64,000 bases of DNA from Arcticibacter pallidicorallinus (GTDB lineage: Bacteria > Bacteroidota > Bacteroidia > Sphingobacteriales > Sphingobacteriaceae), in NCBI RefSeq assembly GCF_003002875.1, contig NZ_PVTH01000002.1, forward strand, positions 186,001 to 250,000. Direction: 5' to 3'. Below, piece after piece: positions 24,649 to 30,314 of this stretch. The notes below the pieces were generated by a model. It was not told where the DNA came from. It did not search any database and saw only the letters and a program-made list of their open reading frames with translations. The stretch's first letter is position 1. Each line of letters opens with the position of its first letter. Position numbers and translations under genes: made by a program.

Positions 24649-25431
24649 TTATTTAAGCACCACATTGGAGAAATACTTCTGAAATATCGTCAATGCCTTT
24701 TGCTTGCACTCTTCACTAGGGCTCTCCGTGTCCTTTAAGGGATAATTCATTTTCATCAATTCCCATTTGTGCAGACCCAACTGATGGAAAGGAATAATTT
24801 CAACCCGGTCAACGGTCTTGAAGTCTGCGAAACGCTGTCCCCATTCTTCGAGATACTCTTCCTGATCCGTCCATCCCGGTACGAGCACATACCTCAGCCA
24901 CATTCGTTTTCCGGTCGACTCCCGGTAATCCGCCAATGCCAGCGTGGCCTTGTTCGTCAGGCCGGTAAGCTTATGATGAATCTCGTCGTTAATATGCTTC
25001 ACGTCCAGTAGCAGCAAGTCTGTATGCTCCAGAAGCTCATGGACCTGATCATTATTTAAGCGACCATTCGTGTCGAGACAGGTGTTAATACCCTCCGCAT
25101 GAAGGCGTTTAAAAAAGGTGCTCAACTTGCTTCTCTGCAGAAGAGGCTCACCTCCTGAAACCGTTACACCTCCGAATTTGCCGAAGTAAGATTTCTGGCG
25201 AACAGCCCTTTGTACGAGTTCGTCAATAGAAACTAAGGTGCCGCCCCGTACATCAAGAGTATCCGGGTTCTGACAATATAAGCACCGGAACTGGCATCCC
25301 TGAACAAAGATCACCATCCTGATCCCCGGCCCGTCATGGGTTCCAAATGTTTCGAGTGAATGAATCCGCAGATGTTCCGGATCATCAAAATTCAATTTAG
25401 CCGCTTCAATATCCTGTAATGGAAAATACAT
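24649..25431 (-). CDS. pflA: Pyruvate formate-lyase activating enzyme
   Basis: Radical SAM activase that installs the glycyl radical on PflB. The cluster motif CQFRCLYC (Cys46, Cys50, Cys53) follows the family signature ETFGTHDGPGIRMVIFVQG. GGVTVSGGEPLLQ is the SAM-contacting GGEP motif. Length 260 is close to the E. coli enzyme (246), with about 20 extra residues at the N-terminus. It lies downstream of pflB on the same strand, but an intrinsic terminator (25455-25488) separates them, so pflA expression probably relies on read-through. Confidence 0.93.
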   Translation of the reverse strand: MYFPLQDIEAAKLNFDDPEHLRIHSLETFGTHDGPGIRMVIFVQGCQFRCLYCQNPDTLDVRGGTLVSIDELVQRAVRQKSYFGKFGGVTVSGGEPLLQRSKLSTFFKRLHAEGINTCLDTNGRLNNDQVHELLEHTDLLLLDVKHINDEIHHKLTGLTNKATLALADYRESTGKRMWLRYVLVPGWTDQEEYLEEWGQRFADFKTVDRVEIIPFHQLGLHKWELMKMNYPLKDTESPSEECKQKALTIFQKYFSNVVLK

Positions 25432-25513: not shown

Positions 25514-27748
25514 TTACATGTTTTCGTGGAAGGTTCTCGCGATTACCTCCAGCTGATGTGCACGTGACAGGCGAACAAAGTTCACAGCATACCCCGAAAC
25601 ACGGATGGTTAACTGCGGGTATTCTTCAGGATGGTTATAAGCATCCATCAAAGTCTCTCTGTTTAGTACGTTTACGTTCAGGTGATGAGCCATGTGCTTA
25701 AAGTAGCCTTCCATGGTGTTTACCAGGTTGGTGATCTGCTCTTCACGAGTATCTCCTAACGATTTAGGGATCATAGAAAAGGTATTGGAGATACCATCCT
25801 GCGCATCACTATATTTCAGCTTTGCCACAGAGTTTAATGAAGCAATAGCTCCACTGTTATCACGTCCATGCATCGGATTTGCTCCCGGAGCAAAAGACTC
25901 TCCAGCCTTACGCCCGTCAGGTGTTGCACCTGTGTTGGTGCCATACATTACGTTAGACGTAATGGTCAGCAATGACAATGTAGGAGTGGAGTTTTTGTAT
26001 GTAGCGTGCTTTCTCAACTCATTAACAAAGTAATGTGTGATTTCCTGAGCGATTGAATCCGGACGGTCATCATCATTACCAAACTGAGGATATTCTCCTT
26101 CGATTTTGAAGTCAACAGTAAGACCTTTTTCATTTCTGATAGGAGTCACCTTTGCGTATTTGATTGCAGAAAGCGAGTCAGCAATGATGGAAATACCTGC
26201 AGCTCCGTATGCGATATCAATATGAGGATCTGAATCGATCAGAGCCATCTGAGCTCTCTCATAGTAATACTTGTCGTGCATGTAGTGGATGATGAACATT
26301 GCTTTGGCATATACCCTTGCAAGGTCACTCAGCGTGCGTTTGAATACATCCATTACCAGATCATAATCAAGAGGACCTTCTGGTAATTCAGGGATTCCCT
26401 TGATGATTTCAGTGCCTTCGTGTTCTTCACGGCCGCCGTTCAGAGCAATCAAAAGGGCCTTAGGCAGGTTTGCACGTGCACCAAAGTGCTGAATTGATTT
26501 TCCAATCTCCTGATAAGAAACGCAGCATGCGATACCATAGTCATCAGAACCACGGTTAGGACGCATCAGGTCATCATTCTCATATTGAATGGAAGAAGTA
26601 TCAATCGATACCTGAGCACAGAAGTTCTTGAACCCTTCAGGAAGGTGTTCAGACCATAGTACAGTCAGGTTTGGCTCAGGTGAAGCACCTAAGTTGTATA
26701 AAGTTTGAAGGAAACGGAATGAAGTTTTAGTCACCTTCGTACGTCCGTCATTCAGCTGACCACCGATAGATTCTGTTACCCATGTAGGGTCACCACCAAA
26801 AATCTCATCATAAGATCCGGGACGCAGGTGACGTACCAGTCTCAGTTTCATTACAAACTGATCAACCAGTTCCTGTGCTTCCTCTTCTGTCAGAGTTCCT
26901 GCTGCCAGGTCTCTTTCAAAATAAATGTCAAGGAAAGAAGAAACGTTACCGAGCGACATTGCCGCGCCGTCCTGCTCTTTTACCGCAGCTAAGTAGGCAA
27001 AATACACCCACTGAACTGCCTGGTGTGAATTCACTGCAGGTTTTGATACATCAAAGCCATACTCGGCAGCCATGGTGATCATGTCTTTCAAAGCAGCGAT
27101 CTGAGCGTTGATCTCTTCACGAAGACGAACTTTGTGCTCTGTCATCTCTCCGCCAACCTTTGCCAGATCAGCCTTTTTGAAATTGATCAGCGCATCTGCT
27201 CCGTATAGGGCAAGGCGACGGAAGTCACCGATGATACGGCCACGTGCATAGTTATCAGGAAGTCCTGTAAGAACGTGCTTTGAACGGTATTTTCTGATCT
27301 CAGGATCGTAAGCCGCAAAAACACCTTCGTTGTGATTCCTTGCATAATTAAATACGTCTTTTACACGGTCAGAAACTTCCAAACCACGTTCTCTTACTGC
27401 AGACTCTACCAGCTTGATGCCACCAAAAGGTTTCATCGCTCTTTTCAGAACCTGATCTGTCTGAAGACCAACGATTACCTCATCGTCCTGTTTGATATAT
27501 CCGGGCCTGAAGGCCGTCATGTTTGAAATAGTCTCAGTGTCTATTGCAAGGCACCCATTGTTCGCTCTTTCCTGTAGAAGCGCTTCCTTAGCCGCATTCC
27601 ACAGATTCGTGGTTTTAGCAGAAGGTCCAGATAGGAATGATGAATCTCCGGTATAAGGTTTGATGTTTTTTACAACGAAATCATATACGTTTAATGTTGT
27701 GTTCCATTCTCCTTGTTCAAATGGAATTGCTGTGACATCTGTTTTCAT
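25514..27748 (-). CDS. pflB: Formate C-acetyltransferase (pyruvate formate-lyase)
   Basis: Glycyl-radical enzyme that turns pyruvate and CoA into acetyl-CoA and formate without oxygen. The adjacent catalytic cysteines are seen in [12 protein letters not shown] (Cys407-Cys408) and the radical glycine in RVSGYAVNF (Gly719). Length 744 matches the 760-residue E. coli enzyme. It starts about 35 bases after a predicted transcription start, with a TAGATTTG element and a TGAC-N4-GTCA inverted repeat upstream (27787-27830), suggesting activation by an FNR/CRP-type regulator. The pair with pflA indicates facultative fermentation. Confidence 0.95.
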
Positions 27749-27786: not shown

Positions 27787-27830
27787 CAAATCTACGCAGA
27801 TTAACGCTCATTAAATGTGACTGGCGTCAT
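27787..27830 (-). promoter_or_regulatory. Predicted pflB promoter with FNR/CRP-like operator
   Basis: On the minus strand TAGATTTG (27794-27787) matches the Bacteroidota -7 element TAnnTTTG. The inverted repeat TGAC-TGGC-GTCA (27818-27829, extended ATGTGAC on one side) is centred 33 bases upstream, near -40. No -33 TTTG is present where one would be expected, which suits an activator-dependent promoter. The same arrangement occurs at 29139-29181. Confidence 0.7.
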
Positions 27831-27884
27831 CTATTCTGGTGATTTAAGGATCATTAATGAAACCTCAATAAAATTAAGGAATTA

Positions 27885-29120
27885 TTAAGAAATTACCTCT
27901 TCTGTTAATATTTTCGTTTTTGCAGCAGGTTTTACAGCATCTATTTTTAACTTTCCTTTCAAAACATATGCCATCACTGCCGTAGCGAACAAAATCCCCG
28001 CGAAGCCTGTGAAGATGGGCGTGTAATCGTCTGTCAAAGTAATGAGCCATGGACCGGCAAACGCGGCTGCAGACCAGGCAATCAGCACATAGCCCAGTAC
28101 CGATCCCATCTTATCCGCCCCATAAATATCCTTGATGAAGGCGGGCATCGTAGCAAAGGCACCTCCGTAGCAACTGATGATGACAAGCACGGCAACGTAA
28201 AACAACCATGCAGCCGGCGTGAGGCTAAGGATAAAGAAGCAGGCACTGCCAACAATAAAGAAACACATAAACGTATTCCAGCGCCCGATTTTATCGGAAA
28301 CGCTGGACCAGATCAGTCTTCCCACCCCGTTAAACAATCCGATGATGCCAACAAACACGATAGCAGCAGCATCACTGATATGGATGATGTCCTTCGCCAT
28401 CGGAGCAGCTACGGCAATCAAAGCAATACCACATGTTGTATTGAAAAAAAGCATCAGCCAAAGGCCATAGAAGCGTGTATCTGAAAGTAAGGCTGAAGCC
28501 GGAACCGAAGATCCTCCGCTGTGCCCATCGTCAACTGCTACCGAAGATCCTGATGCCGGAACCGCCAGATAGAGTGAGGCAACAACCATCAAAGTAAAAT
28601 AGCAGGCTGCTAGCAAATAGAAGGTATTTGATACCCCAGCCATTGCCGCAATTGGCGAAATGATTTGTGACGCCAGTACAGACCCCGCAGCAAACGACAT
28701 GATGACCAGTCCGGACGCAAAGCCCGGCTTGTCCGGAAACCACTTTACCACCACAGAAACGGGTGTAATATAGCCAAAGCCCAGTCCGATCCCACTAATT
28801 ACGCCATACGTCAGATAGAACAGTGGCAAAGACCCGATACTGCTGGCTAATCCAGCTCCGGCGAGTCCTGCTCCAAAAAAAGCAGCGCCAAACAGTCCTG
28901 CCTTTTTAGGGCCGATCCTGTTTACAAAGTTTCCCATAAAGGCGGCGGTAAGCCCCAGAAAGCAAATAGCCAGACTAAAAGCCAGCTTAAGCTGATGTGC
29001 ATCCCAGCCGTTCATTGATTCCAGAGGTTTAATCCATACGCTATATGCGTAAATTGATCCGATAGACAACTGCAATGTCATTCCGGATAAGGCCATTAGC
29101 CATTTATTCTTCGAATTCAT
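27885..29120 (-). CDS. MFS transporter of the oxalate/formate antiporter (OFA) family
   Basis: Inner-membrane carrier of 411 residues with about 12 helices. N-terminal SIGSIYAYSVWIKPLESMNGW, and later YGVISGIGLGFGYITPVSVVVKWFPDKPG, are characteristic of OFA-type major facilitator proteins. The start is set at Met 29120 (MNSKNKWLMAL); the longer frame to 29246 would add 42 polar residues and cross the predicted promoter. Substrate is not certain: oxalate/formate, lactate or pyruvate are all known in the family. Formate or lactate is attractive because pflB lies next and shares the operator type. A promoter and operator lie at 29139-29181. Confidence 0.82.
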   Translation of the reverse strand: MNSKNKWLMALSGMTLQLSIGSIYAYSVWIKPLESMNGWDAHQLKLAFSLAICFLGLTAAFMGNFVNRIGPKKAGLFGAAFFGAGLAGAGLASSIGSLPLFYLTYGVISGIGLGFGYITPVSVVVKWFPDKPGFASGLVIMSFAAGSVLASQIISPIAAMAGVSNTFYLLAACYFTLMVVASLYLAVPASGSSVAVDDGHSGGSSVPASALLSDTRFYGLWLMLFFNTTCGIALIAVAAPMAKDIIHISDAAAIVFVGIIGLFNGVGRLIWSSVSDKIGRWNTFMCFFIVGSACFFILSLTPAAWLFYVAVLVIISCYGGAFATMPAFIKDIYGADKMGSVLGYVLIAWSAAAFAGPWLITLTDDYTPIFTGFAGILFATAVMAYVLKGKLKIDAVKPAAKTKILTEEVIS

Positions 29121-29138
29121 TTTGGAGAAATTGTTGTC

Positions 29139-29181
29139 CAAATTTAGCGTCTCTACGTGCCTGAAAAACTGACGCAGGTCA
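29139..29181 (-). promoter_or_regulatory. Predicted OFA-transporter promoter with FNR/CRP-like operator
   Basis: TAAATTTG (29146-29139, minus strand) is a perfect -7 element. The inverted repeat TGAC-GCAG-GTCA (29170-29181) is centred 33 bases upstream, identical in spacing to the pflB promoter. The site lies between the transporter and the divergent regulator gene and could affect both. Confidence 0.7.
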
Positions 29182-29282: not shown

Positions 29283-30314
29283 ATGAAACCCATCCGTTTT
29301 TTTGAACATATCCGGATCGATGAATATTCGGCGACTCCAAAGTATCTTCAGCTTACCAATTCCATACTGATAGCTATCGAAGCGGGGAAGATCAGCAAAA
29401 ATGATATGCTTCCGTCGATAAACGAACTCAGTTATGAGCTGGAAATATCGCGTGACACCGCGGAGAAAGGATATAAATACCTCAAGAAGATCGGTGTCCT
29501 GGCTTCTATACCCGGAAAAGGATATTATATAGCCAGTACTGAATTTCGTCAGACGCTTCGGATCTGCCTTTTCTTTAACAAGCTCAGCAGTCATAAGAAA
29601 ATTATTTATGACGCCTTTATTGCTACCCTGGGTGAGCAGATCGCCGTAGATTTCTATATCTATAACAGCGATTACATGCTCTTCAAAAAGCTCCTTAGCA
29701 ATAAGATGGAAGGCTATTCACATTATGTTATCATCCCTCATTTTATAGAGGGAGAGGAGAGTGCCTACCAGATGATTAATTCTATTCCCAAGGAAAAGTT
29801 GATTATCCTCGACAAAAAAATACCGGGTATAACGGGTGAATATGCAGCAGTTTACGAAGACTTTGAAAAGGATATTTACAACTCGCTGGAGAAAGCCCGC
29901 AAGGCCTTAAGTAAATACCATACCATCAAGCTTATATTTCCCGATAAAAGCTACTACCCGCGTGAGATCAAAAAAGGGTATCTCCGCTTCTGCCAGCAAT
30001 ATGCTTTCAACCACAGGATTGTAAACGATATATCCACCGAACCCATTCAGGAAGGTGAGGTTTATATTAATCTGATGGAAAGTGATCTTGTAACATTGGT
30101 AGAGAGACTTTTAAATCTTGATTTGAAAATCGGAAAGCAGATCGGCGTAATATCTTATAACGAAACGCCGCTTAAAAGGGTGATTCTAAATGGAATAACG
30201 ACCATTTCTACCGATTTTCATCAGATGGGAACAGTCGCCGCAAAGATGATCCTGGAGAATTCAAACAAGCATATAGAAGTACCGTTTTCTCTGACTTTAC
30301 GTTCTTCATTATAA
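29283..30314 (+). CDS. GntR-family transcriptional regulator with LacI-like sensor domain
   Basis: Predicted sugar-responsive DNA-binding protein of 343 residues. The N-terminal winged helix-turn-helix (YLQLTNSILIAIEAGKISKN, LPSINELSYELEISRDTAEK, LASIPGKGYYI) is of GntR type. The rest (about 80-343) resembles a LacI/periplasmic-binding-type sensor, ending in MGTVAAKMILENS. This fusion is the AraR-like plan. The start is put at ATG 29283 (MKPIRFFEHIRI), since the 42 residues of the longer frame cross the divergent promoter region. It is the only transcription factor in the sugar half of the window and so the best candidate to control the rhamnose and glycosidase genes; that link is inference. 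Confidence 0.82.
   Translation: MKPIRFFEHIRIDEYSATPKYLQLTNSILIAIEAGKISKNDMLPSINELSYELEISRDTAEKGYKYLKKIGVLASIPGKGYYIASTEFRQTLRICLFFNKLSSHKKIIYDAFIATLGEQIAVDFYIYNSDYMLFKKLLSNKMEGYSHYVIIPHFIEGEESAYQMINSIPKEKLIILDKKIPGITGEYAAVYEDFEKDIYNSLEKARKALSKYHTIKLIFPDKSYYPREIKKGYLRFCQQYAFNHRIVNDISTEPIQEGEVYINLMESDLVTLVERLLNLDLKIGKQIGVISYNETPLKRVILNGITTISTDFHQMGTVAAKMILENSNKHIEVPFSLTLRSSL

Follow-up and report, generated by a model that had tools for sequence, protein, structure and literature searches.

In rhizobia, FixL phosphorylates FixJ, fixK is then switched on, and FixK activates its targets (PMC5582078, PMC4999443). In the FixLJ-FixK2 system of Bradyrhizobium diazoefficiens the nos genes are targeted and the box is centred 40.5 bp from the start, and FixK sites take the form TTGA-N6-TCAA (PMC5582078). 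HcpR1 of deltaproteobacteria recognises sites with the core TGACnnnnGTCA and the consensus TTGACnnnnGTCAA (PMC1274295). Our literature search, with its partial coverage, returned no description in Bacteroidota of the operator reported here or of a FixL-paired receiver-CRP regulator, which is weak evidence. The analysis below pointed to a version of the rhizobial cascade that is probably compressed into two proteins, a heme-PAS kinase and a fused regulator, acting on two promoters of the stretch under study and on others in the same class.

Two operator-promoters of identical geometry

The window, that is, the whole 64-kb stretch of DNA that was analysed, carried two operator-promoters on its minus strand. 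The first was TGACGCCAGTCA-N23-TAGATTTG (27829-27787), in which the operator occupied 27818..27829 and the -7 element 27787..27794, and it ended 38 nt 5' of the pflB ATG. The second, TGACCTGCGTCA-N23-TAAATTTG (29181-29139; operator 29170..29181, -7 element 29139..29146), ended 18 nt 5' of the ATG of a transporter gene. In Bacteroidota promoters, TAnnTTTG forms the -7 element. The operator centre lay 33 bp from the centre of this element in each of the two promoters, neither of which had a TTTG at spacers 17-23 upstream of the -7 element. The original prediction, a perfect TAnnTTTG with a TGAC-N4-GTCA whose centre lies 33 bp away and without a -33 TTTG, was therefore an exact description of both sites. 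Provided that the element begins near -12, the N23 spacer places the operator centre near -41/-42, and the position predicted from this spacing, near -41.5, is the one that FNR and CRP take at class II promoters. An operator there would overlie the site of the -33 element, in keeping with the missing -33 TTTG.

Pyruvate formate-lyase, the product of pflB (25514..27748, minus strand), scored 1072.6 bits against TIGR01255 (cut-off 994.2) and contained the Pfam domains PFL-like and Gly_radical. The gene for its activating enzyme, pflA (24649..25431, minus strand; TIGR02493, 292.6 bits, cut-off 231.75), is separated from it by 82 bp and is probably co-transcribed with it. The transporter gene (27885..29120, minus strand) encodes an MFS protein related to the OFA transporters, as which it had been labelled originally. 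That label was given up, because the OFA models of NCBIfam scored below their cut-offs and NF049980 passed its own (351.6 bits, cut-off 320). By these scores the protein is best named an L-lactate MFS transporter of the SfMCT type, and it is a probable lactate exporter. A regulator gene (29283-30314 of the window), whose product combines a GntR HTH with a domain resembling periplasmic binding proteins, is divergent from the transporter gene, and the transporter operator sits between the two.

Spacing and sequence of the operator in genome, family and class

The pflB and transporter sites were the only two perfect copies of TGACN4GTCA in the window, and of its 39 TAnnTTTG motifs only those of pflB and the transporter had an operator at N23 with up to two mismatches. 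Copies of TGACN4GTCA with one mismatch were about as frequent in the window as in shuffled sequence (24 vs 20), as would be expected if palindromes had arisen by chance beside ordinary promoters. Against this stood the spacing. In pattern searches of the whole genome, as had been proposed with the original prediction, TGACN4GTCA-N{17,25}-TAnnTTTG gave 7 matches, 5 of them at exactly N23, and the reversed-pattern control gave 0. In the family sample (61 genomes, operator-to-element spacings of 8 to 38), N23 accounted for 43 of 103 matches, followed by N22 (10) and N24 (9), with about 1.4 matches at each other spacing. After removal of the own genome, 38 of 95 matches were still at N23 (P 1.7e-31 against even spacing; this and the P values below are optimistic, as the genomes are akin to one another). 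The same peak appeared in the class sample of 149 genomes, with 55 of 150 among the matches listed. A peak of this kind implies a protein by which operator and promoter element are kept in a fixed register. Together with the functions of the target genes, the N23 peak in family and class refuted the chance reading, which we regard as having practically no probability, and the pflB and transporter sites were confirmed as real, two members of a regulon that spans the class.

The statement that no third copy exists held within the window and failed genome-wide, where 3 further perfect and 18 one-mismatch copies at N23 were found. None of the resulting 23 sites, perfect or with one mismatch, lay inside an ORF of more than 100 aa; all were intergenic. 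With up to two mismatches at N23 there were 55 matches against 33 in the control, so that some single one-mismatch sites may be due to chance.

The base outside TGAC in 45 distinct N23 sites was A in 23, G in 11, C in 8 and T in 3, which makes ATGAC-N4-GTCAT the favoured form. The sites of FNR, FixK and HcpR1 share the register TGA-N6-TCA with it, but their outer base is T, whereas A or G prevailed here. This comparison bears on a reading in which an HcpR- or DNR-like nitrosative stress regulator binds the sites and the response is to NO, not oxygen. The N23 sites do contain the HcpR1 core (PMC1274295), and the list of targets extends to nosZ and an Fe-S repair gene of the YtfE/Ric type. The outer T of the HcpR consensus, however, was avoided, occurring in only 3 of the 45 sites, the targets are broader than hcp/frdX and include pflB, adhE, pta and hemN, which are not typical NO genes, and not one of the ten cNMP-domain proteins of the genome was identified as HcpR. 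We therefore consider control by such a NO regulator improbable.

A receiver-CRP/FNR fusion beside a FixL-type kinase

Two of these ten cNMP-domain proteins had FNR-like helices. One is a fusion of 350 aa encoded 2.2 kb left of the window (C2:182747-183799, minus strand), composed of a receiver (Response_reg, E 2.5e-27), a cNMP_binding domain and HTH_Crp_2. Its recognition helix, ETVSR, is of the E. coli FNR type, and D54, K106, R303, E315, S318 and R319 were invariant in 29 aligned fusion sequences. The fusion could not be classed with any single known regulator: it carries the receiver with a phosphoacceptor Asp (D54) that characterises FixJ, but its output is cNMP_binding plus HTH_Crp_2 in place of a LuxR/NarL-type DNA-binding domain; it is not a stand-alone CRP/FNR-type protein as FixK is (NCBIfam FixK, 90 bits, below the cut-off of 300); and the N-terminal cysteine cluster for the 4Fe-4S centre of FNR was absent. 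Surveys of response regulators may well list the combination of receiver and Crp domains already.

Directly ahead of the fusion gene, and overlapping it, lies a gene for a FixL-type heme-PAS histidine kinase (G000:C2:183771-184985, minus strand). In FixL the RHD histidine is the heme ligand and the HIIGIGR arginine is the oxygen-contacting residue. The PAS domain of the kinase matched that of B. japonicum FixL (PDB) at 1.3e-30 with both residues aligned, so that heme-PAS with proximal His, HIIGIGR arginine and kinase were all present as in FixL. A kinase of this type adjoined the fusion gene in 30 of 30 loci examined with phmmer. On the other side, directly 3' of the fusion gene and ahead of usp-hemN, there was an operator with one mismatch at N23; it was perfect in several relatives (L254, L255, L257, L259 and L265), where TAnnTTTG at N23 was not always recognised. 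Gene order thus links the kinase-fusion pair with the operator as well as with an anaerobic gene. The sites are probably switched by a single fused regulator that takes its signal from a heme oxygen sensor.

Co-occurrence in the family was consistent with this. Sites were found in 10 of 16 genomes with the fusion only, in 5 of 8 with only a cysteine FNR, which is often encoded beside ccoI, and in 1 of 10 in which the fusion, the cysteine FNR and the stand-alone FNR-like class were all absent. With the fusion or the cysteine FNR present, 30 of 46 genomes had sites, compared with 2 of 15 having neither (Fisher P 0.0007). In the class, the fusion was present in 74 of 149 genomes, and operator matches per genome were 2.26 with it and 1.24 without it (P 1e-4), the control counts being 1.14 and 0.84. 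The association was not exclusive, since some fusion-bearing genomes had no perfect sites and genomes with the cysteine FNR only did have sites; more than one protein probably reads the operator. As the genome studied here has no ccoI-linked cysteine FNR, the fusion is the best candidate and, judged from these comparisons, the likeliest regulator.

A stand-alone FNR-like protein (L039, G000:C4:323136-323825, plus strand), of a class common in the family, was at first favoured as the main reader of the operators and as a cysteine-bearing oxygen sensor. It has N-terminal cysteines at positions 4, 8, 13 and 16 and a further one, in 'SIVCFL', similar to the fourth ligand of FNR, and FNR proteins act at -41.5. 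Co-occurrence spoke against it. Genomes with the stand-alone FNR-like class only had sites in 1 of 5 cases, none at N23, and its addition to the fusion brought no rise (10 of 17 genomes with sites, vs 10 of 16 for the fusion alone). Its recognition helix, YETVFR, also differs from the ETISR of FNR. A main role for L039 is thus unlikely, if less so than that of a NO regulator, and its presence does not predict the operator; with its N-terminal cysteines it could take part alongside the fusion. The family assignment in the original prediction, CRP/FNR, was supported, but the regulator is more probably the receiver-CRP/FNR fusion with its FixL-type kinase than a stand-alone FNR or CRP protein.

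Regulon members and the proposed circuit

The genes behind the own-genome sites included pflB and pflA, the L-lactate-type MFS transporter, a cytochrome c gene with a Sec-dependent nosZ (scored with NCBIfam), which by our reading is followed by further nos genes, an AdhE-like gene, pta and hemN. An azurin-like cupredoxin gene, whose score was slightly below its cut-off, the gene of a Ric/YtfE Fe-S repair protein, universal stress protein genes, one more Crp-family gene and others were also found, and one site had a CcoI-like copper ATPase gene as a candidate target in the divergent direction. Classic genes of the low-oxygen response make up this list (nosZ, adhE, pta, hemN, ccoI, azurin, Fe-S repair), several of them scoring above curated cut-offs, and with the position near -41.5, the TGA-N6-TCA register and the absence of a -33 element they support, as predicted from sequence, the original proposal of class II activation by a CRP/FNR-family protein in an anaerobic role. 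The operator in the upstream region of the small Crp-family paralogue L300 (G000:C14:35198-35240, minus strand) hints at a regulatory cascade. A 65-aa zinc-ribbon-like small protein was encoded downstream of the operator at G000:C3:58136-58178 (minus strand; L286, L181) and, in another genus, likewise downstream of an operator, and it may be a conserved small member of the regulon.

In relatives, the N23 operator preceded ccoI-like genes in five genomes, and its other targets were an OFA relative, pflB, nirK-like, hemN, ferrochelatase-like and sulfur genes, all named by reading of the proteins. The pflB genes of Jejuia, Hyunsoonleella and Seonamhaeicola had a perfect operator at the same spacing, and an Arcticibacter pflB orthologue had one with a single mismatch, also at the same spacing. 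No perfect site was found upstream of the pflB orthologues checked in Bacteroides, Porphyromonas and Flavobacterium, and the pflB site is therefore not universal.

Two operators had no ORF behind them, and Rfam and ARAGORN found nothing at either. The L001 operator-promoter, of the regulon type (G000:C1:45086-45264, minus strand), was followed by a segment of about 120 nt that ended in an intrinsic terminator and was convergent with apt. In two other genomes of the genus (L162, L165) the operator stood at N22, TTTGAGTTTGAGTTTGTTGATAAG was invariant, and the terminator had a changed stem. This conserved segment is a putative low-oxygen sRNA. By BLAST and the invariant 21-mer (120 and 201 genomes) it was confined to three genomes of one genus; other matches that were followed up lay in coding sequence or were chance-like, and consensus folding of the three sequences gave weak covariation. 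In design it would resemble E. coli FnrS, where an FNR-type site controls the promoter of an sRNA. The second, L007 (G000:C9:106877-106919, plus strand), was a perfect N23 operator-promoter without a downstream ORF on its strand, and by our reading it points antisense toward a mqnA-like gene.

From what was computed, namely the sites with their spacing and conservation, the target genes, the domain make-up, the order of the genes and the co-occurrence, we infer low-oxygen kinase activity, phosphotransfer, DNA binding and activation as follows. At low oxygen the deoxy form of the FixL-type heme-PAS kinase would be active and would phosphorylate the fusion at Asp54; a dimer of the phosphorylated fusion would occupy ATGAC-N4-GTCAT, its centre near -41.5, and act as a class II activator that stands in for the missing -33 contact while RNA polymerase uses TAnnTTTG. 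Formate fermentation (pflBA), the probable lactate exporter and N2O reduction would be switched on jointly, along with the pathways to ethanol and acetate, anaerobic heme synthesis and maturation of the cbb3 oxidase. We give this proposal as a whole, from kinase through fusion and operator to the low-oxygen regulon, a probability of about two in three (0.68).

The proposed circuit resembles FixLJ-FixK2 in its heme-PAS FixL oxygen sensor, CRP/FNR-type output, nos target and TGA-N6-TCA register. It differs in that a single protein combines receiver and CRP/FNR output in place of a separate FixJ and FixK, which would save one transcription step, and in its outer A/G and inner C instead of TTGA and its TAnnTTTG-type promoters. 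With E. coli FNR it shares the half-site register, the -41.5 class II position, the E-x-x-S-R helix and the targets pfl and adhE, but the fusion lacks the N-terminal cysteine cluster and has a receiver, and the site is ATGAC, not TTGAT. For the Bacteroidia at large, we lean by a small margin to the view that a fused FixJ-FixK, phosphorylated directly by a FixL-type heme kinase, is a main low-oxygen activator, acting at a fixed class II ATGAC-N4-GTCAT 23 bp before TAnnTTTG and driving fermentation, the reduction of N2O and microaerobic respiration, with an oxygen-responsive sRNA added in some species.

Little is known of low-oxygen switching in Bacteroidota outside the gut anaerobes. The nosZ of these bacteria is Sec-dependent (clade II), and they are of importance for the removal of N2O. 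What can now be offered for them is an operator whose geometry is exactly defined, a sensor-regulator pair identified by name, the regulator occurring in about half of the sampled class genomes, and a list of targets. The geometry also suggests a way in which the -33 contact may be replaced at TAnnTTTG promoters, which would be useful for oxygen-controlled promoters in Bacteroidota.
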